From Thermoflexus sp. (lineage in GTDB: Bacteria > Chloroflexota > Anaerolineae > Aggregatilineales > Aggregatilineaceae): DNA of 64,000 nt. Numbering within the stretch: position 1 is the first letter of the stretch; the number at the start of each line of letters is the position of its first letter. The notes beneath the pieces were generated by a model. That model was given only the letters and a program-made list of their open reading frames with translations. It ran no database searches and had not been told where the DNA came from. Where the stretch lies: positions 65,915 to 129,914 of the forward strand of contig DYGX01000011.1 of the NCBI GenBank assembly GCA_020724465.1. Direction: 5' to 3'. This document shows positions 31,139 to 41,845 of this stretch, one piece after another. The position numbers were made by a program, and so were the translations under genes.

Positions 31139-33730
31139 TCAGGCGCTCGCCCCAAGCCATTCCTGCGCGGCGGCCAGGACGTAGGCTGGCGTGCATTGAG
31201 CGGGGGAAATCTGCCGGCAGGGTGCGGGCCGTTCCGCTGCGGCGGCAGCAAGCGGGGCGTCGCCGGTCGTCACGGCGAGAATTGCGGTGTGGCGCGCGTC
31301 CGGCAGGGCGAGGAGATCGCGCAGAATCTGCTCGCCTTTGGCGCTGGTGGCGTCGATGACGATCATGTCCGGCCCGATCACTTCTGCCATCTCCACTACC
31401 AGTTCTTCGACGCCTGCCAGCTCGACGACATAGCCTGCTGCTTCGAGCGCCTGGCGCAGCGCCAGGGCGACGCGCGTCTCATCCTGGGCCAGCAGGATCA
31501 GCCGGGCGCTGTCTGCGGCAGGCGCAGGAGCCGTGAACAGCACGGCGCGCTGGGGATCGGTGACCCGGACTTCGGCGTAACCACCGGCAGTGGCGATTTG
31601 CTCCGGGGTGGCGCGCGGCAGGGACACACGGAAGGTGCTTCCTGTTCCCGGCGTACTGCTGACCGTCAGGCTACCATGTTGGAGCGCTGCGAGCTGCTGG
31701 CTGATGCTCAACCCCAGGCCGGTCCCCCCGTATTTGCGCGCTACCATGATCTCGCCCCGGCTGAAGCGGTCGAAGATGGCCTGGTGCAGATGCTCCGGAA
31801 TCCCGATGCCGGTGTCGCTGACGCTGATTACCACAGAGTCGGCACCAACTTCGGCGTCGACGCGGATCTCGCCCTGCTCGGTGAACTTGGCCGCGTTCGA
31901 CAGCAGGTTGAGGATGATCTGCGACGTACGCAGCGGATCGGCCCACAGCGGGGGGAGTTCATCGGGGTAGCAGGCGCGCAGAGCGATTGGGCGCCCGTGC
32001 ACCAGGCCTGAGGCAGTTTGCAATGCCCGATCCAGCAGCGGCTTGAGGTCAACCACGCCCAGGTTAAGCTTGAGTTGCCCGCTCTCGATCTGGGTCAGGT
32101 CCAGCACATCGTTGATCAGGGCCAGCAGGTGCTCGCCACTCTTGCGAATGGTATCCAGGTCATGATAGTACTCTTCGGGAATGGGTTTGTGATAGAACGA
32201 CCGGCCGGGGCTGAGCATCGCCTGGGTGTGCCCGATGATCGCGGTGAGCGGGGTGCGCAGCTCGTGCGACATGTTCGACAGAAAGATGCTCTTATAGCGG
32301 TTCGCCTCGTCCGCCTGCTGGCGCGCCACCCGCAGCGCGTCGAACAGCTCCGCGTTGCGGATCGCGATCGCGAGCTGGTCGGCGAGGCCCTGCAGCGCCT
32401 GGACGTCCTCTTCCACAAAAGCGCCGGGCCGGTTGCTTTGCAGATCGAGCACGCCGAGAATGCGCTTGCCGATGCGCAGGGGGAGCACAAGCTCCGCCTG
32501 CGTGCCCGGCAGAATATGGCCCGCGACAGGAGCCGCCGTGTGAGGAACGTCGTTGGCAAGCCAGAACTGGCCGTGTGTGGCGCACCAGCCGAGCGCGCTG
32601 TCATCGTCGATGGAGATGCGGGTGTCGGCGGGCAGAGTCAGGGCATCGTCACGGCTGGCGCTGCTGCCCAGAATCAGCGTCTGGCCCCCGTCATCAACCA
32701 GATAGATCGCGGTGTGATCGTATTCAAACCGCTGGCGGATGATGCGCACGATGGTCGTCAGCAGTTCGTCGCGGTCCAGGATCGATGTGGCGCTGCGGGC
32801 GACCTCGGCGTGTGCCTGAAGCTGGGCGGCGCGCCGGGCGAGCGCCTGGTTCAGGCGGTCGAGTTCTTCGGCCTGACGCCGCACCTCAAAGTAGTTGCTG
32901 AGCGCCCACACGGCGGGGGTAAGCTGCTCGTCGACGGACCCGAGGATCAGGTGCACAATCTCTTCTTCGCTGGTCTGCGCCGTGGGTCGTTCGGCGATTT
33001 TGTGTCCGTCGTTGAGCACCACGATCCGCGTGGCAACGCGAAAAACATCTTCCAGGTTCTGCGTGACCAGTAGCACCGTGCGCCCGCTTTCGCGCAGGGT
33101 TTCGATCAGGCGGAAGATGTCCTCTTTGTGCGCTTCGAGCGAGTTGACCGGCTCGTCGAGCAGCAGCAGGCGCGGCTCGGCGATAGTCGCCTTGACGAAC
33201 GCAACGGTCTTGCGCTGGGCACTGGTCAGATCGTGCAAACGGCAGGTGAGGGGAGGCATTTCGAACCCGAGCCGCTCGAACGCGGGCTGCGCCAGCGCGA
33301 GCATCTCCTTGGGGTTCCACCAGCCGATCCAGCGCAGCGGCGCGCGCTGGGGATGCGGCTGGCTGGCGAAGATGTAGCTCAGGCCGGTCATATGCTCGGC
33401 GTAATTGATATCCTGGTGGACGATCGTAATGCCATAGCGTGCGGCACGGTATGAGGGATCGAGCCGGACGCGCCGGCCTTCTACCACGAACCACCCGCCG
33501 TCCGGGCGCATGCTGCCCGAAAGCAAGCGCAGCAGCGTCGATTTGCCGGAGTCGGTGTCGCCCACGACGCCGATCACTTCGCCGGGGAAAATATCCAGGT
33601 CGAGGTGCTGCAGCGCCTCGACACCGCCATAGCGCTTGGAGATCTGGATGGCGCGCAGAAAGGGGCCGCGGGTCGGTTCCATCGCGGGTGCGGGTTCCCA
33701 TCTCGTATCGATATGCGCAACTGCCTGCAT
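31139..33730 (-). CDS. ABC ATPase-GAF-histidine kinase-receiver fusion protein
   Basis: An 863-residue cytosolic fusion. Residues about 24-265 are a CUT2-type (RbsA/MglA-like) ABC ATPase: Walker A GDTDSGKST (57-65), altered signature LTSAQ (168-172), Walker B LLLLDEP (188-194), and Gln224 where ABC ATPases have the switch His. After a coiled coil come GAF (about 307-464), HisKA with His489 in MSHELRTPL, HATPase (Asn608/Asn612, DTGIGIP 639-645, GGTGLGL 668-674), and a receiver-like domain (about 740-860) with a possible Asp793 but no clear conserved Lys. No membrane segments. The ATG at 33730 is chosen; ATG 33682 is also possible. No ribosome site decides. Confidence 0.88.
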   Translation of the reverse strand: MQAVAHIDTRWEPAPAMEPTRGPFLRAIQISKRYGGVEALQHLDLDIFPGEVIGVVGDTDSGKSTLLRLLSGSMRPDGGWFVVEGRRVRLDPSYRAARYGITIVHQDINYAEHMTGLSYIFASQPHPQRAPLRWIGWWNPKEMLALAQPAFERLGFEMPPLTCRLHDLTSAQRKTVAFVKATIAEPRLLLLDEPVNSLEAHKEDIFRLIETLRESGRTVLLVTQNLEDVFRVATRIVVLNDGHKIAERPTAQTSEEEIVHLILGSVDEQLTPAVWALSNYFEVRRQAEELDRLNQALARRAAQLQAHAEVARSATSILDRDELLTTIVRIIRQRFEYDHTAIYLVDDGGQTLILGSSASRDDALTLPADTRISIDDDSALGWCATHGQFWLANDVPHTAAPVAGHILPGTQAELVLPLRIGKRILGVLDLQSNRPGAFVEEDVQALQGLADQLAIAIRNAELFDALRVARQQADEANRYKSIFLSNMSHELRTPLTAIIGHTQAMLSPGRSFYHKPIPEEYYHDLDTIRKSGEHLLALINDVLDLTQIESGQLKLNLGVVDLKPLLDRALQTASGLVHGRPIALRACYPDELPPLWADPLRTSQIILNLLSNAAKFTEQGEIRVDAEVGADSVVISVSDTGIGIPEHLHQAIFDRFSRGEIMVARKYGGTGLGLSISQQLAALQHGSLTVSSTPGTGSTFRVSLPRATPEQIATAGGYAEVRVTDPQRAVLFTAPAPAADSARLILLAQDETRVALALRQALEAAGYVVELAGVEELVVEMAEVIGPDMIVIDATSAKGEQILRDLLALPDARHTAILAVTTGDAPLAAAAAERPAPCRQISPAQCTPAYVLAAAQEWLGASA

Positions 33731-33985: not shown

Positions 33986-35029
33986 TCACGCGCTCTGGCG
34001 GTGCATCAGGTGGCCGATGATCAGCCGGTCAAGCTCCTCGTAATCGCGCGCGTCGATGCACTGTTGCATCGCGGCGCGGTCCAGGCTGCGCACGCGCTCC
34101 ACCAGCCACAGGAAGGTCTCGCGGCTGTTCGCCAGGTGTTTATGCGCCAGCTCCGCGGGCTGGGTGCGCAGCGCTTTAACGTCCAGCCCGACCACGCCCT
34201 TTTCATAGAAACGGTGGTTGTCCAGCACCAGAACCTGATCAAAGGCGCGGCGCAGGTTGACGCTGCCAAAGGCGCGGTCCTGGTCGAACTTGAGGCCATT
34301 TTGATCGTTGAGGTGGACGCTCCACAGCTTGTCGTACGCCAGCGCGAAAGCCATTTCGTCGGCCGGGTCCAGCCCGGCCAGGATCGCATGGGCGGATTCG
34401 ACCAGCGTCCCAACACGTTCGGGCGCGCGTGTCCGGAAGCCGAGCGCGATGGCGTGCCCGATGGTGGGGATGTAGGCCAGGTCCATCGGCTCGTTGGGCT
34501 TCGGCTCGATGGCGATGCGGATCTCCGGCACATATGCGAGCATGTCGTCCAGGGCTGCCACCAACTGATCCACAGCGCGGGCTGCATCTTTCGCCTCGCG
34601 CTGATACGTTCCTTCACGGGCGTACCACAGCACGACGAGCGGCACGCCAAGCGCCTGCGCGATGTCCAGCATTTTGTGCGAGCGTTCGAGGGCGTAGGCG
34701 CGGGCCTGCGCGTTGTTCGAAGTATAGGCGCCGTCGACCGTCAGGGGGTGCTCCCACAGGCGCGGCGCGACGAACTCCGCAAACAGACCGTGGTCGTCCA
34801 GCTTTTGCTTGAGGGCGCGGGCCTCGGCCTCGATCTGAGCGGCGGACTTGTGGTCAAGATCCGGCACGGCATCGTCGTCGTGGAACTGGACGGCGTCGAA
34901 ACCCAACTGCTTGTACAGCGCCAGCTTTTGCTCGAACGCGACGGTGGGCCGGACGGGCGGGCCAAACGGGTCTGCCCCTTCGTGGATGTTCCAGGGTCCA
35001 AACGAGAAGGTGTAGCCAAACGTCTCCAT
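33986..35029 (-). CDS. Xylose isomerase-like TIM-barrel enzyme
   Basis: A 347-residue enzyme closely patterned on class I xylose isomerases, though about 40 residues shorter. Visible: catalytic FHDDDAVP (His/Asp pair), TSNNAQARAYALERS, IAIEPKPNEP (metal Glu and catalytic Lys), ESAHAILAGLDP (metal Glu and His), and NDQNGLKFDQD (metal Asp pair). Two differences from standard XylA stand out: the WGGREG loop reads WYAREG, and the metal Asp in the HIDLN segment is His (SVHLN). It probably interconverts an aldose and ketose in the cytosol. It follows a CUT2 transporter operon after an intrinsic terminator. Confidence 0.78.
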   Translation of the reverse strand: METFGYTFSFGPWNIHEGADPFGPPVRPTVAFEQKLALYKQLGFDAVQFHDDDAVPDLDHKSAAQIEAEARALKQKLDDHGLFAEFVAPRLWEHPLTVDGAYTSNNAQARAYALERSHKMLDIAQALGVPLVVLWYAREGTYQREAKDAARAVDQLVAALDDMLAYVPEIRIAIEPKPNEPMDLAYIPTIGHAIALGFRTRAPERVGTLVESAHAILAGLDPADEMAFALAYDKLWSVHLNDQNGLKFDQDRAFGSVNLRRAFDQVLVLDNHRFYEKGVVGLDVKALRTQPAELAHKHLANSRETFLWLVERVRSLDRAAMQQCIDARDYEELDRLIIGHLMHRQSA

Positions 35030-35120: not shown

Positions 35121-36260
35121 CTAGCGGCCCAGGCGCGTGCGAAGATGATCGAGGCCGAACAGGCTCGACGCGGGCCGGTTCTGGAGCCGGACGCGCATCC
35201 GGTCGAAGGTGATCGCCAGGATGATCGTCAGGCCGATGGCAGCGGGCTGCCAGTACGGGTCATAGCCCAGCAGGTTCAGGCCGCTGCGCAGGACCTGCAT
35301 GATCGCGGCCCCGATCAACGTTCCGACGATGGTCCCTTTGCCGCCTGTGACGCTCGTGCCGCCGATGAAGACGGCCGCAATGACATCCAACTCGTAGCCC
35401 GAGGCCGCCGTGGGAGCCGCAACACCCAGGCGCGCCGTCATCAGCGTGCCGCCGATGCCTGCCATCAGGCCAGACAGCATAAACGCCATCAGCTTGACGC
35501 GCCGCGTGTTGATGCCGGACAACTGCGCCGCCTGTTCGTTGCCGCCCACCGCATATATCCGATAGCCCCACACCGTCCGCGTCAGGAAGATGGTCATCAC
35601 CACGGCGAGCACGATCATCACAATGAACGGTATTGGAATGTCTACACCGAGGGCCGTGACGTTGTTCTGCCCGATCTTCAAGAATTCGTTGTTCAACTTT
35701 TGAAACGGCCAGCCGCTCGACCAGCCATAGCAGATGCCGCGGGCGATGCTCATCGTGCCCAGCGTGGCAATGAAGGCCGGTAGATTCGCCCGTGATACCA
35801 GCAGGCCGTTAACCGTCCCGACAAGCAGCCCCATCAGCGGACCGGCAATCAGCGCCAGAGGGACGTATTCGTCTGGTCCCATCTGCTGCAGCCGCCCGCT
35901 GATCGTCTTCTCGATCATCCACGGCGACGGTTGGCCCTCGATATTGCCGCTAATCAGGTAGGCGGCAGCCAGTCCGGACAGGGCCATAGTCGATCCGGCT
36001 GACAGGTCGATGCCGCCGGTGATGATGACCAGCGTTTGTCCGAAGGCAGCGATCGCAATCCACGAGAACGACAGCCAGATGTTGCGCAAGTTCTGCGCGG
36101 TGGCGAAGGTGTCCGTCTTCCACGTGAGGTACAGAATCATCGCTACCAGGACGATAAAGACGCCAAGTTCCTGGCCCGAGGCGATCCCGCGCCACCACGC
36201 GCGTGACGCGCGGCCAAACGCTTGTCGGCGCGTCAATTCATCGGCTGTTTGCTCGTTCAT
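35121..36260 (-). CDS. CUT2 sugar ABC transporter permease (XylH/RbsC-like)
   Basis: A 379-residue membrane protein with about ten helices and the hallmark GQTLVIITGGIDLSAGSTM (about residues 74-92), GINTRRVKLMAFMLSGLMAG and FIGGTSVTGGKGTIVGT. Between the second and third hallmark it has a longer loop (ISGNIEGQPSPWMIEKTISG) outside the membrane. It overlaps the ATPase gene by 4 bases (ATGA), and completes a CUT2 importer with 36257-37807 and 37900-39870. Confidence 0.92.
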   Translation of the reverse strand: MNEQTADELTRRQAFGRASRAWWRGIASGQELGVFIVLVAMILYLTWKTDTFATAQNLRNIWLSFSWIAIAAFGQTLVIITGGIDLSAGSTMALSGLAAAYLISGNIEGQPSPWMIEKTISGRLQQMGPDEYVPLALIAGPLMGLLVGTVNGLLVSRANLPAFIATLGTMSIARGICYGWSSGWPFQKLNNEFLKIGQNNVTALGVDIPIPFIVMIVLAVVMTIFLTRTVWGYRIYAVGGNEQAAQLSGINTRRVKLMAFMLSGLMAGIGGTLMTARLGVAAPTAASGYELDVIAAVFIGGTSVTGGKGTIVGTLIGAAIMQVLRSGLNLLGYDPYWQPAAIGLTIILAITFDRMRVRLQNRPASSLFGLDHLRTRLGR

Positions 36261-37807
36261 GCTGCGTGTCCTTCTGTGACCAGTTTCGTGTTTGTCAAAT
36301 GGGTCTGTCCGCTGGCGTACGCCATGATGCGCTCTTGGGTTGCTTCTTCACGATTCAGAATAGCTGCGATCCGGCCTTCGTGCATGACGACAATCCGGTC
36401 GCTCATCGCCAGAATCTCTGGCATCTCAGACGAGATCATGATGATGCCGATGCCCTGCTTGGCAAGCTCGACCATAAGCTGGTGAATCTCGGCTTTGGCC
36501 CCAACGTCGATGCCGCGCGTCGGCTCATCGAGAATCAAGACTTTGGGATTGACCATCAGCCACTTGGCGAGCACAACTTTCTGCTGGTTGCCGCCGGAGA
36601 GATTCTTGACGGTCTGCTCCATGCCGGGCGTGCGCACCCGCAGGCGGTTGACGTACTCACCTGCCGCGCGGCGCGCCAGCGCCCGCCGGACCCACCCGTA
36701 CCGGCTGAACCGCTTGAGCATCGGCATAATCATGTTGAACAACACCGTGTTCTCCAGGATGAGCCCCTGGTTGGCGCGATCTTCCGGCACCAGACCGATT
36801 CCGTACAGCATGGCATCTTCGGGCGAATGGATCTCGATCTCATGGCCATCCAGCCAGATGTACCCGTGATCCTTACGGTCGGCTCCGAAGATCAGGCGCA
36901 TCGTCTCGGTGCGTCCGGCGCCGATCAACCCGGCGAAGCCCAGGATCTCGCCGCGTTTGAGGTCAAACGTCACGTCTTCGACCACACCCCGCCGCGTCAG
37001 TCCCTGCACGGCCAGCACCGGCTCTGTGATGGGCACCGTTTCTTTGAGGAACAGATCGTCGATGTTGCGCCCGACCATCAGGCGAATGATCTGCTCGGCA
37101 TCGGCTTCTGCGGTCTTCAGCGTGCCGACGCGCTCGCCATCGCGCAGGACGATGATCCGGTCGCTGATCTCCAGCACCTCTTCCAGGCGGTGCGTGATGA
37201 AAATAATCGCCAGGCCGCGCTCCCTGAGATCACGGATAATGTCGAACAGAGACTTGGTTTCGTCCGCCCCCAGCGCCGAGGTCGGCTCGTCCATGATAAT
37301 CACCTGTGCTTCAATGGCCAGCGCCTTGGCGATCTCGACCTGCTGGCGCTCGGCGACAGACAGCTCTCCGACCAGGGCGGCAGGGTCGATCCGCGCGCGC
37401 ACGCGCTGAAGCAGCTCTGCCGCGTCGCGCTCCATTTTGCGCCGGTTCACCAGTTTGAACGGCTTAAGCAGGCCGCCATACCGCGGCTCGCGACCCATGA
37501 AAATATTGGCAGCCGCCGTCTGGTTGAGCGTGAGCGTGAATTCCTGGTAAATGGTCGAGATGCCGAGTTCCTGCGAGTGCGCAGGGTTGCGGGGCCGGAT
37601 CTCCTGGCCGTTGAGGTAAATGTGCCCGCTGTCTTTCTGATAGGCGCCGGCCAGGATCTTCATCAGTGTCGATTTGCCAGCGCCGTTTTCGCCCAACAGC
37701 GCGACCACTTCCCCACGATAGACTTCAAAGTCCACATTCTTGAGCGCCTGAACACCGGGGAAGGATTTCGACACCCCTTCGACGCGGAGGATGGGTTCCT
37801 GATTCAA
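36257..37807 (-). CDS. CUT2 sugar ABC transporter ATPase (XylG/RbsA/MglA-like), double domain
   Basis: A 516-residue protein with two ATPase domains. Domain 1: Walker A GENGAGKST near residue 40, signature LSVAERQQVEIAKAL, Walker B VIIMDEPTSAL, switch His in FITHRLEEV. Domain 2: Walker A altered to GLIGAGRTE as is normal for this family, signature LSGGNQQKVVLAKW, Walker B LILDEPTRGID. It energises uptake of the sugar bound by the tandem binding protein encoded upstream. Confidence 0.94.
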   Translation of the reverse strand: MNQEPILRVEGVSKSFPGVQALKNVDFEVYRGEVVALLGENGAGKSTLMKILAGAYQKDSGHIYLNGQEIRPRNPAHSQELGISTIYQEFTLTLNQTAAANIFMGREPRYGGLLKPFKLVNRRKMERDAAELLQRVRARIDPAALVGELSVAERQQVEIAKALAIEAQVIIMDEPTSALGADETKSLFDIIRDLRERGLAIIFITHRLEEVLEISDRIIVLRDGERVGTLKTAEADAEQIIRLMVGRNIDDLFLKETVPITEPVLAVQGLTRRGVVEDVTFDLKRGEILGFAGLIGAGRTETMRLIFGADRKDHGYIWLDGHEIEIHSPEDAMLYGIGLVPEDRANQGLILENTVLFNMIMPMLKRFSRYGWVRRALARRAAGEYVNRLRVRTPGMEQTVKNLSGGNQQKVVLAKWLMVNPKVLILDEPTRGIDVGAKAEIHQLMVELAKQGIGIIMISSEMPEILAMSDRIVVMHEGRIAAILNREEATQERIMAYASGQTHLTNTKLVTEGHAA

Positions 37808-37899: not shown

Positions 37900-39870
37900 T
37901 TACTCGCCAGGGAATGGCGGCGGCAGAGGCTTGGTGAAGTCGCTGGTCGCCCAGGCTTCGGCCATCGCGTCCACGTTGTGGATGGTCACGATGTCCATGC
38001 CGCTGTCGGTCCAGTCCGGATAGGGGTAGAGGTTGGTCACATGGTTGAGCGCCATGAAGACCGTGTCATAGCCCCAGCCCCAGTACTTCTGGCCGACGAG
38101 ACCGTGCAGCAGCCCATCCTGCACCCACTCCAGCTCGACCGGCAGGGTGTCGAACGCGACCGCCTTCATGCCCCGGTTGAGGACAGCATCCTCGAACTGC
38201 GGCATGGCACCGCGTCCGGCGAAGACCGGCCACAGCCCGACGAAGAACCAGCCGTCCAGGTCGGGGTTGGCGAGCATGGTCTCTTCGACAACCTGGACAC
38301 CCAGGTTGATGTCGTCGTTGCACGCCACCGTCGCTACGATCTCGATGCCAGGATACTGCGCGACATAGTCCCGGAAGCCACGCATGCGCTCTTCGAGGTT
38401 GAACGCACCCGGCACGCCGGTCAGCATGGCAACCTTACCTTCTTCACCCATGGCGCGGACGAGCAGTTCACCCGCGGCCCAACCACCGGTGTAGTTATCG
38501 ACGCCGAGGTAGGTGAAGCGACCGGAGTCGGGGGAGTCGGAGTCCCAGGTCATGACCGGGATGCCGGCGGCGATCGCGGCGTTGATCGGGTCGACGCAGC
38601 CGTCAGGGTCGTTGCAGCTCACGCCGATGGCGTCCACACCCTGCGAGATGGCGTCCTCGATGACGCGCGCCTGCTCGGCCATGTCCGAGTTGACCGACCC
38701 CATGTACAGACACTCGACGGTCCGGCCCGTCTGCGCGCTGAGTTCAGCCGCGGCGGCCATGCAGCCGTCACGTCCCAGCTCGAAGACCGGGTTGTTGAGC
38801 GCCTTCGGAATCCAGGCAATAGTAAACTTGCCATCTTCGGGCGGATAGGCGGGTGGCAGAGGCTTGGTGAAGTCGCTGGTCGCCCAGGCTTCGGCCATCG
38901 CGTCCACATTGTTGATGGTCACGATGTCCATGCCGCTGTCGGTCCAGTCCGGGAACTGCTTGCCGTTCACGACATAGTCGTACAGCATGAAGACCGTGTC
39001 GTAGCCCCAGCCCCAGTACTTCTGGCCGACGAGACCGTGCAGCAGCCCATCCTGCACCCACTCCAGCTCGACCGGCAGGGTGTCGAACGCGACCGCCTTC
39101 ATGCCCCGGTTGAGGACAGCATCCTCGAACTGCGGCATGGCACCGCGTCCGGCGAAGACCGGCCACAGCCCGACGAAGAACCAGCCGTCCAGGTCGGGGT
39201 TGGCGAGCATGGTCTCTTCGACAACCTGGACACCCAGGTTGATGTCGTCGTTGCACGCCACCGTCGCTACGATCTCGATGCCAGGATACTGCGCGACATA
39301 GTCCCGGAAGCCACGCATGCGCTCTTCGAGGTTGAACGCACCCGGCACGCCGGTCAGCATGGCAACCTTACCTTCTTCACCCATGGCGCGGACGAGCAGT
39401 TCACCCGCGGCCCAACCACCGGTGTAGTTATCGACGCCGAGGTAGGTGAAGCGACCGGAGTCGGGGGAGTCGGAGTCCCAGGTCATGACCGGGATGCCGG
39501 CGGCGATCGCGGCGTTGATCGGGTCGACGCAGCCGTCAGGGTCGTTGCAGCTCACGCCGATGGCGTCCACACCCTGCGAGATGGCGTCCTCGATGACGCG
39601 CGCCTGCTCGGCCATGTCCGAGTTGACCGACCCCATGTACAGACACTCGACGGTCCGGCCCGTCTGCGCGCTGAGTTCAGCCGCGGCGGCCATGCAGCCG
39701 TCACGTCCCAGCTCGAAGACCGGGTTGTTGAGCGCCTTCGGAATCCAGGCAATGGTGAATGTGTCGTCCTGCGCCTGAACGGCGGGGACGGACACTCCGC
39801 TGCCCGCAAGCGGCGATAGCGTGATCACCGCCAGGGCCAAAGCAGTAATTAGACGTAACCCATTCTTCAT
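37900..39870 (-). CDS. CUT2 sugar-binding protein with two fused full-length copies
   Basis: A 656-residue exported protein: signal sequence (1-34), then two complete type I periplasmic-binding domains (about 36-345 and 347-656), each starting FTIAWIPKALNNPVFELGRD. The units repeat with a 311-residue (933-base) period and are almost identical; differences cluster in one stretch, LYDYVVNGKQFPDW against LNHVTNLYPYPDW. The second copy has no signal sequence and follows a short linker (PPAYPPEDGK). Usual length for the family is about 330. ATG 39870 has AGGAGG upstream. A sequencing or assembly artefact cannot be excluded from sequence alone. Confidence 0.88.
   Translation of the reverse strand: MKNGLRLITALALAVITLSPLAGSGVSVPAVQAQDDTFTIAWIPKALNNPVFELGRDGCMAAAAELSAQTGRTVECLYMGSVNSDMAEQARVIEDAISQGVDAIGVSCNDPDGCVDPINAAIAAGIPVMTWDSDSPDSGRFTYLGVDNYTGGWAAGELLVRAMGEEGKVAMLTGVPGAFNLEERMRGFRDYVAQYPGIEIVATVACNDDINLGVQVVEETMLANPDLDGWFFVGLWPVFAGRGAMPQFEDAVLNRGMKAVAFDTLPVELEWVQDGLLHGLVGQKYWGWGYDTVFMLYDYVVNGKQFPDWTDSGMDIVTINNVDAMAEAWATSDFTKPLPPAYPPEDGKFTIAWIPKALNNPVFELGRDGCMAAAAELSAQTGRTVECLYMGSVNSDMAEQARVIEDAISQGVDAIGVSCNDPDGCVDPINAAIAAGIPVMTWDSDSPDSGRFTYLGVDNYTGGWAAGELLVRAMGEEGKVAMLTGVPGAFNLEERMRGFRDYVAQYPGIEIVATVACNDDINLGVQVVEETMLANPDLDGWFFVGLWPVFAGRGAMPQFEDAVLNRGMKAVAFDTLPVELEWVQDGLLHGLVGQKYWGWGYDTVFMALNHVTNLYPYPDWTDSGMDIVTIHNVDAMAEAWATSDFTKPLPPPFPGE
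37919..39753. repeat. In-frame direct tandem repeat, 933-base period
   Basis: Bases 38069-38820 and 39002-39753 (752 bases) read identically by eye. The adjoining stretches 37919-38068 and 38852-39001 match except for scattered changes and a divergent block at about 38022-38058 against 38955-38991. The repeat encodes the two halves of the binding protein. Confidence 0.9.
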
Positions 39871-40150: not shown

Positions 40151-40183
40151 TTGTTTTGAGTCTATACGAAATGGATAAGGGTG

Positions 40184-41404
40184 ATGCCGCCGGTTCGCGC
40201 CGATCAAAATCTGGTTAAGCAACTGAACTGCGCATTGATCCTCGATCAACTGCTCGCCAGCTCGCCGCTGTCGCGCGCCAACCTGGCGGAGCAGACCGGG
40301 CTGACACGCAGCACCGTTTCATCACTGGTCGGCGAACTGATCGAGCAGGGGTTGATCCGGGAAGTCGGCCTCGAATCGGCTGGCTCGCGCGGCCGCCCCG
40401 GAATTCTGCTGGAACTGAACCCATATGGGGGATCGATTGTCGGCATCGAGATCAACGTCGGCTATGTGACCGTTATCCTCACCGACTTCACCGCGCGGAC
40501 CTTGTGGCGGCGGCATGTGCAGATCCCCGAGACGACGGACCGCGCGGAGATGCTGGCGCTGGCTGAGGGCCTGATCGGCGAGGCGATCCGGGCCGGGGCC
40601 GCCAATAACCTCAGGTTGCTTGGGATTGGGCTTGGCGTGCCGGGGCTGGTCGATATCGGGCAGGGCGTGCTGCGCTATGCGCCAAACCTCGGCTGGCGCG
40701 ATGTGAACTTCCGCGAGCAGTGGGGGAACAAATTTGGTGTGCCGCTGTATATCGAAAACGATGGCAATGCGGCGGCACTTGGGGAGCACTATTTCGGGGT
40801 GGCGAAAGGCCACCAGCATTTTGTCTTTCTGGGGACGGGGGTTGGCCTGGCCGGTGGACTGATGCTCAACGGCGAGGTCTATCGCGGCGTGGGAGGATAC
40901 GCCGGCGAAGTCGGCCACATGATCGTCGAGTCGGGCGGGGACCTGTGCAGTTGCGGTCGGCGCGGTTGCTGGGAAACACTGGTCGGGCCGCGCGCCGTCA
41001 TCCGTGGGATCGCGCAGGCGTTGGAGCGCGGCGCGCCGTCTCGCATCCCCGAGCTGGTCGGTGGCGACACCCGGCGGATCACGATGGATGTGGTCGTGAG
41101 TGCGGCCAACCAGGGCGACCAGCTCGCCCTGGACACTCTCTCAGATATCGCGTTGTACCTGGGCGCGGGCATCGCGAACCTGATCAACCTGTTCAATCCG
41201 GAGATGATCGTCCTGGGCGGCACGCTGATCGCCGCGGGCGACTATCTGCTGCGACCTATCAGTAAGATCATCGCGGCAGAAGCTCTGCCCGAACCGACGC
41301 GGATGGTCGCGCTGGCGCTGTCGGCGTTGGGGACGGACGCCTGCGTCAAGGGCGCCGTGGCGCTGGTTATCGATGGCATTGTTCGCGAGCCGGTCTTCTG
41401 TTAG
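40184..41404 (+). CDS. ROK-family transcriptional regulator (XylR/NagC-like)
   Basis: A 406-residue repressor-type ROK protein. The N-terminal winged helix (LAEQTGLTRSTVSSLVGELI, about residues 33-52) is followed by the sugar-kinase-like fold with GLGVPGLVD, the phosphate loop GTGVGLAGGLMLNG and the zinc motif CSCGRRGCWE. Such proteins release their operator on binding a sugar. It is divergent from the CUT2 transporter operon and a ROK-like operator overlaps that operon's promoter, so it probably senses the same sugar, xylose or a related pentose. ATG 40184 is chosen; GTG 40181 is next to it. Confidence 0.9.
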   Translation: MPPVRADQNLVKQLNCALILDQLLASSPLSRANLAEQTGLTRSTVSSLVGELIEQGLIREVGLESAGSRGRPGILLELNPYGGSIVGIEINVGYVTVILTDFTARTLWRRHVQIPETTDRAEMLALAEGLIGEAIRAGAANNLRLLGIGLGVPGLVDIGQGVLRYAPNLGWRDVNFREQWGNKFGVPLYIENDGNAAALGEHYFGVAKGHQHFVFLGTGVGLAGGLMLNGEVYRGVGGYAGEVGHMIVESGGDLCSCGRRGCWETLVGPRAVIRGIAQALERGAPSRIPELVGGDTRRITMDVVVSAANQGDQLALDTLSDIALYLGAGIANLINLFNPEMIVLGGTLIAAGDYLLRPISKIIAAEALPEPTRMVALALSALGTDACVKGAVALVIDGIVREPVFC

Positions 41405-41473: not shown

Positions 41474-41845
41474 ATGGGCACGATTCTATTGGTCGAAGAT
41501 AACCAGAACACGGCCGACTTCATCATTCGCATCCTCGAATCCGAAGGGCACACCGTGCTCCACGCGACGCGCGGCCTGGAAGGGGCACGCTGGGCGCGGG
41601 CGGCCCATATCGATCTGGTGCTGATGGACATCGACCTTCCAGATGTCAACGGGCGCAGCGTCGTGCTCAGCCTGCGCCGCCAGAAGTCCGCCAGCGCCCT
41701 GCCGATCATCGCCGTGACCGTGCAGGCCGACGAGGAGTCGGTTCGGCTGGCGGAAGGTTTCGGCTGCAACGCCTTTCTGGCCAAGCCATTTCTGCCCGAA
41801 GAGCTGATCGGGCTGGTCAATCATTTTCTGAAGCCCGCCGACTGA
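41474..41845 (+). CDS. Single-domain response regulator (CheY-like receiver)
   Basis: A 123-residue receiver without output domain. It has acidic residues in LLVEDN, the phosphoacceptor Asp in LVLMDIDLPDVNG, Thr in AVTVQAD and Lys in FLAKPFLPEEL. Partner kinase unknown; the closest orphan hybrid kinase is the ABC-GAF-kinase fusion at 31139-33730, 8 kb away, but a link is conjecture. It is 69 bases downstream of the ROK gene on the same strand. Confidence 0.9.
   Translation: MGTILLVEDNQNTADFIIRILESEGHTVLHATRGLEGARWARAAHIDLVLMDIDLPDVNGRSVVLSLRRQKSASALPIIAVTVQADEESVRLAEGFGCNAFLAKPFLPEELIGLVNHFLKPAD

Follow-up and report, generated by a model that had tools for sequence, protein, structure and literature searches.

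UhpC, an MFS protein and transporter paralogue, is the receptor for the HisKA_3-type kinase UhpB, and in XylFII-LytS the binding protein acts directly on the membrane kinase, not through a permease and an ABC domain. XylFII-LytS has been named as a solute-binding-protein-activated kinase (PMC11113362). In the PstSCAB-PhoU-PhoR system of E. coli, PstB mutations that are predicted to trap the protein in one or the other conformation lead to opposite signalling through PhoR, so that the kinase read-out of an ABC importer has a precedent (PMC5775613). BceS reads BceAB and does so in complex with the transporter (PMC7438565). Kinase reading of ABC transporters (Pst-PhoR, Bce) is hard to study, the contacts being short-lived and distributed over several proteins.

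The window analysed here, a 64,000-nucleotide stretch of a Thermoflexus sp. contig, encodes a CUT2-type ABC ATPase domain fused to a histidine kinase. We define the ABC-HK family as proteins that carry a CUT2-like ABC domain, a TPxxWALxxY linker and a histidine kinase in one chain, as the window protein does. No earlier description of an ABC-domain/kinase fusion was found in the open-access literature or family libraries searched, and NCBIfam holds no model spanning both the ABC and the kinase halves.

ABC-HK proteins would share with UhpC-UhpB the use of a transporter paralogue as receptor, although the UhpC link does not run via an ATPase domain, and with XylFII-LytS the activation of a histidine kinase by a sugar-binding protein. 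The Pst system is similar in that a kinase without an outside sensor of its own reads the conformation of an importer ATPase (PMC5775613), however, PstB is a working, separate ATPase and PhoU mediates, whereas the ABC-HK domain is fused to its kinase and has lost catalytic residues. In BceAB-BceS, an ABC transporter likewise serves the kinase as sensor and forms a complex with it (PMC7438565), a complex that is predicted here, indirectly, from the changed docking loop and the missing ATPase genes, but BceS is a membrane kinase without an ABC domain and reads an antimicrobial-peptide transporter with an active ATPase. Single-domain CUT2 ATPases of the FrcA-like type, unlike ABC-HKs, carry an LSGGQR signature and are lone transporter ATPases.

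Architecture of the fusion protein

A sequence-only reading of the window had proposed a sugar-importer-type ATPase domain at the N-terminus of a soluble hybrid histidine kinase encoded at 31139-33730. The ABC and kinase parts are indeed one gene on the minus strand, with no stop or frameshift between the two halves, and Pfam matched ABC_tran (residues 40-196, 1.3e-17), GAF (319-457), HisKA (480-551) and HATPase_c (598-707) in the open reading frame. The domain order from N- to C-terminus is ABC ATPase, linker, GAF, HisKA, HATPase_c and a degenerate receiver; residue numbers refer to the 863-aa reading from the ATG at 33730. While the single frame held, the start did not: Met17, at window position 33682, is likely the best choice, since in the close relative G299 the ATG further upstream (33730) is not in frame and other orthologues begin around Met17. 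The features of the fusion are as follows.

31139-33682, minus strand: whole fusion, 847 aa from Met17 (863 aa from the ATG at 33730)
32936-33667, minus strand: CUT2-type ABC ATPase domain, residues 22-265 (Pfam ABC_tran; NBD trees)
33215-33229, minus strand: degenerate signature LTSAQ in place of LSGGQ (LTSxQ in 12 of 12 orthologues)
33059-33061, minus strand: switch Gln224 in place of His (TQN in 12 of 12 orthologues; His absent in 32 of 32 aligned ABC-HKs)
32780-32935, minus strand: linker or signalling helix with the motif LTPAVWALSNYFEVRRQAEELDR (conservation; long helix 280-316 in the AF2 model)
32354-32779, minus strand: GAF domain (Pfam)
32078-32293, minus strand: HisKA dimerisation domain with phospho-acceptor His489 (Pfam, alignment)
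31610-31939, minus strand: HATPase_c catalytic domain with intact N and G boxes (Pfam, alignment)
31151-31507, minus strand: degenerate receiver, acidic pair and Lys lost, Asp793 kept (Pfam, alignment)

Homologues with the same fusion in an uninterrupted frame were found in 11 further species, generally as single frames of about 838-868 aa with 54-60% identity to the window protein; the closest orthologue, in G299, is 96% identical and its contig end cuts off the end of the fusion. An open fusion shared by 11 related species argues against an assembly or sequencing artefact, and the two-gene reading of ABC and kinase parts is ruled out by the one frame in all orthologues. There is no evident transmembrane helix in the window fusion, so sensing of the outside would need a membrane partner. 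The AF2 model of the full-length fusion is good per domain only (pTM 0.36) and was not used for domain arrangement.

The kinase part of the proposed hybrid kinase stood, with His489 and the N- and G-box residues invariant in 12 of 12 orthologues. Its receiver part fell: the domain scores 19.9 bits in Pfam against a cut-off of 30.2, and of the acidic pair, phospho-Asp and Lys of a hybrid-kinase receiver only Asp793 is kept. Since the acidic pair and Lys are lost, the fusion's own receiver is probably dead and not phosphorylated. Only 11 of its 119 positions are invariant in window-type orthologues, and the corresponding figure for the ABC domain is 90 of 241. The linker is the best-conserved part, with 32 of 53 positions invariant.

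The ABC domain retains nucleotide-binding residues and has lost catalytic ones

The window ABC domain was described as keeping Walker A and the Walker B Glu while carrying LTSAQ as signature and Gln as switch residue. This is borne out, and both LTSxQ and the switch Gln are fixed in all 12 orthologues, which also retain Walker A, the Q-loop Gln and the Walker B Asp and Glu. In the window protein itself, the Walker A Lys and the Walker B Asp-Glu are present, a Glu sits at the D-loop, and the set used for hydrolysis by a working CUT2 ATPase (signature, D-loop Asp, switch His) is absent. The layout also departs from that of working CUT2 ATPases, which have two ABC domains per chain or occur as a lone ABC protein; here, a single ABC domain is fused to a kinase.

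An alignment of 32 ABC-HKs (12 window-type fusions cut to the ABC part and 20 HisKA_3 members) extends this pattern. The Walker A Lys is retained in 31/32, the Q-loop Gln in 31/32, the Walker B Asp in 32/32 and the Walker B Glu in 24/32, and the switch His, D-loop Asp and second signature Gly are found in 0/32. Exceptions are L212, with a damaged Walker A, and L215, with a changed Q-loop. Among the window-type orthologues, the dN/dS of the ABC domain in close pairs is 0.02-0.08. Judging from these residues, the ABC domain probably binds ATP, with hydrolysis probably slow or absent.

The two-domain ATPase encoded in the same operon is ruled out as the source of the ABC domain, as the two fall on separate, well-supported tree branches. 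In one tree, the window-type ABC domain is nearest to single-domain FrcA-like ATPases (99/83), a placement that shifts once Chloroflexota members are added.

The window operon and its relatives

The CUT2 permease does lie 1.4 kb upstream of the fusion, as had been noted. The genes of the operon and its neighbours are listed below.

33986-35029, minus strand: xylose isomerase-like TIM barrel protein (Pfam; present also in G299, G303 and G305)
35121-36260, minus strand: CUT2 permease (BPD_transp_2), proposed docking partner (Pfam, AF2 model, structure match)
35508-35576, minus strand: permease loop YAVGGNEQAAQLSGIN between modelled helices 6 and 7, proposed ATPase-docking loop (loop comparison, AF2 model)
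36257-37807, minus strand: CUT2 two-domain ATPase, absent from the operon in G302 and G306 (Pfam, neighbourhood comparison)
37900-39870, minus strand: tandem double sugar-binding protein (Pfam)
40181-41404, plus strand: ROK-family repressor-like protein with N-terminal HTH (Pfam; syntenic in G306, G308, G319 and partly G302)
41474-41845, plus strand: lone receiver with intact receiver motif, candidate phosphotransfer target (Pfam; 78-82% identity in G306, G308 and G319)

The window-type gene order is sugar-binding protein, ATPase, permease, in some species a TIM barrel protein, and then the fusion; in the window, the TIM barrel gene (33986-35029) separates the permease from the fusion. Beyond the sugar-binding protein, pointing away, come the ROK protein and the lone receiver; in all three other assemblies that extend to this region (G306, G308, G319), both occupy the same position. 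The lone receiver at 41474-41845 is probably the target of the window kinase.

The sugar-binding protein is built of tandem repeats within a single chain. It has two copies in the window, where the halves share 97% DNA identity, and in G306, G308 and G319, three in L220 and one in G302 (binding-protein genes: L137 5955-7958; L135 13166-15217; L142 3483-5432; L220 11819-14761). The contigs of several relatives stop inside or right beside this gene. L244 and L245 have two binding proteins per locus; the window halves match the kinase-side ones (about 60%) and gave no match to the ATPase-side ones at E<=1e-5, so that the window transporter resembles the receptor-type lineage. Just before the window, the same contig encodes a second CUT2 ATPase (G000:C44:63141-64658), which shares 62% identity with that of the window. 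Downstream of the fusion, G303 and G305 encode a DeoC/LacD aldolase, a PfkB kinase and a URO-D family protein (L136 831-3903; L139 3902-8533), and G305 an FGGY kinase as well; these genes hint at which sugar pathway is involved.

Searching with the ABC domain and linker identified the same fusion in 10 Anaerolineae/Chloroflexi records (genome contigs, two short patterns), and the window-type fusion is present in 12/154 genomes of the same order. Together, both searches yield 12 species including the window, the other eleven coming from two families of that order. Two sets of candidates were set aside: C17, considered as a further ABC-GAF fusion of the window's genome, has only PAS/GAF/HisKA domains, and L014, L023, L029 and L032 (HAMP-GAF kinases matching from residue 251) are kinase-half homologues without an ABC domain and belong to another family.

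In G302 and G306, no ATPase gene is found between the sugar-binding protein and the permease, the sequence there is continuous, and the fusion is retained. A search of both assemblies, which are 89% and 77% complete, for an orthologue of the operon ATPase elsewhere found none, the best CUT2 ATPases being 52% and 48% identical, respectively, which is paralogue level. G302 clusters with f3 species that have the ATPase and G306 is placed in a different branch, so that two losses of the ATPase gene would be the simpler reading. As an alternative to a lost motor, another CUT2 ATPase could act in trans. The permeases of both species keep the canonical loop.

A wider ABC-HK family in Chloroflexota

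Profile searches at phylum and class level returned, besides lone ATPases, proteins of about 530-590 aa in which a CUT2-like ABC domain and the sequence TPxIWALDSYY are followed by a HisKA_3-type kinase; in Pfam, a single chain matches ABC_tran, HisKA_3 and HATPase_c, and equivalent kinase boxes are present. With a profile including the HisKA_3 type, ABC-HKs were detected in 25 of 400 sampled Chloroflexota genomes (about 6%), mostly with a HisKA_3-type kinase. The 25 comprise 18 strong matches, among them the window, and a divergent group of seven, three of which were fetched and one Pfam-checked. No relative was found in viral contigs, and no member at E<=1e-78 in samples of Actinomycetota (198 genomes) and Planctomycetota (129), both without a positive control.

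The linker motif is common to both kinase types, and in the ABC-domain tree all fusion ABC domains fall on one branch with a support of 93/79, which is not decisive. One branch and a shared linker may point to a single origin of the ABC-linker unit, with the kinase half exchanged later. By these comparisons, the window fusion is one variant of a phylum-wide ABC-HK family.

Co-occurrence with CUT2 transporter genes, which the sequence-only reading had suggested looking for, is pronounced: such genes lie within 5 kb in 11/11 testable window-type loci and 24/28 HisKA_3 loci, which is the genetic linkage with a transporter looked for in a transporter-coupled kinase. The background of 3% was estimated from the roughly 10 CUT2 ATPases that the 4.4-Mb genome of the window encodes; even at a 10% background the binomial chance stays below 1e-10, so the linkage is far beyond chance. 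HisKA_3 loci without a nearby CUT2 gene are L217, L221, L222 and L223. In L222 and L223, from one genus, the ABC kinase adjoins a CofH/MqnC-like radical SAM gene.

Further, a REC-GerE-REC response regulator is encoded near 20/28 testable HisKA_3 loci (Pfam-checked in nine, identified by similarity in the others) and appears to be the cognate partner of this type. Its LuxR-type HTH is flanked by two receivers, one on either side (L210 6148-7197; L220 10473-11525; L244 1009-2055; L241 6286-7362).

Permeases beside HisKA_3-type kinases are altered mainly at one loop

In ten loci, the permease beside the HisKA_3 type belongs to one clade (support of 100/99, for the first seven). Compared with 30 other permeases, only seven positions that are at least 85% conserved in the others are replaced in the ten, and five of the seven (237, 240, 241, 245, 250) are located in one loop, where the canonical YAxGGNxxAAxLSGI has become YTLGSSERALLVSGV and similar sequences. 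The pattern emerged from seven of the ten; the three examined later, L244-L246, also fit it. The window permease was modelled with AF2 (pLDDT 88), and there the loop folds into short helices flanked by modelled helices 6 and 7. The best matches of the model among real structures are the BtuC-fold importers BhuU, FhuB and PsaC (weak E-values, probability 0.99-1.0). In the BtuC fold, helices 6 and 7 are joined by the loop on which the ATPase docks. The HisKA_3-side permeases thus seem to have changed mainly where an ATPase would dock. In the window, the permease loop is canonical and a true ATPase remains in the operon, so that docking is proposed there on the strength of relatives.

Proposed mechanism and alternative explanations

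We consider it fairly likely that the dead ATPase domain docks the kinase on a CUT2-type permease, making the complex an importer-derived sugar receptor. A CUT2-type importer ATPase domain would have become the input domain of a soluble histidine kinase and would dock on the cytoplasmic loop of a permease that is either shared with a true ATPase, as in the window, or dedicated. Docking and binding ATP without driving transport, the domain would let the kinase read the permease. Engagement of the permease by a sugar-loaded binding protein may change the state of the docked ABC dimer, and the conserved helical linker would relay this state to the kinase dimer. The HisKA_3 type would then phosphorylate the REC-LuxR-REC regulator, and the window type probably the lone receiver at 41474-41845. 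We infer docking, ATP state, ligand, direction of signalling and phosphotransfer from comparisons of sequences. The original suggestion of a docking sensor rather than a motor thereby gains comparative support (catalytic residues lost in 32/32, binding and Q-loop residues mostly kept, CUT2 linkage, absence of the ATPase gene, loop change on the HisKA_3 side), with its points on origin and receiver modified.

Retained nucleotide-binding residues, an apparently soluble fusion and four HisKA_3 loci without nearby CUT2 genes would also fit an ABC domain that senses cytoplasmic ATP/ADP or energy state without contacting a permease, the linkage then reflecting co-regulated sugar uptake. We regard this as unlikely: the Q-loop Gln, which couples an ATPase to its permease, is kept in 31/32 despite the lost catalytic residues, two operons lost the ATPase and kept permease and fusion, and in dedicated permeases most of the changes fall in the docking loop. 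The window and many relatives encode a true ATPase and a fusion for apparently one permease, as would be expected if the dead ABC domain competed with the true ATPase to throttle uptake, making the fusion a transport regulator with a secondary kinase output. This appears the least probable explanation, given that kinase catalytic residues are intact in the aligned members, that 20/28 HisKA_3 loci also encode a response regulator nearby, and that the G302 and G306 operons hold no true ATPase to compete with.

The altered loop could have another cause in loci with two permeases, where the permeases might form a heterodimer, with the altered loop matching one of the two halves of the two-domain ATPase and the ABC-HK binding elsewhere. 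L206, L224, L225, L244 and L246 do encode two permeases beside one two-domain ATPase, and sequence searches gave no solved structure of a close permease. This arrangement is nevertheless improbable: the altered permease directly adjoins the ABC-HK in L209, L210, L220 and L228, and in L210, L220 and L228 the two share an operon with the response regulator and without an ATPase. Moreover, the altered permeases group as a single clade (100/99), and in L206, L224, L225 and L244-L246 they are accompanied by a binding protein of their own.

Implications

Returning to the docked receptor, it is slightly favoured by our analysis that an importer was made into a receptor in Chloroflexota, with binding protein and permease kept, the motor replaced by a kinase-fused docking domain, and the importer either shared or duplicated. 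In ABC-HKs, evolution has fused the reader to the domain that would contact the transporter, making docking surface, ATP state and signal path testable with few proteins. Natural variants offer a shared permease, a dedicated permease or an operon without a motor. The family may thus show a route from transporter to receptor.
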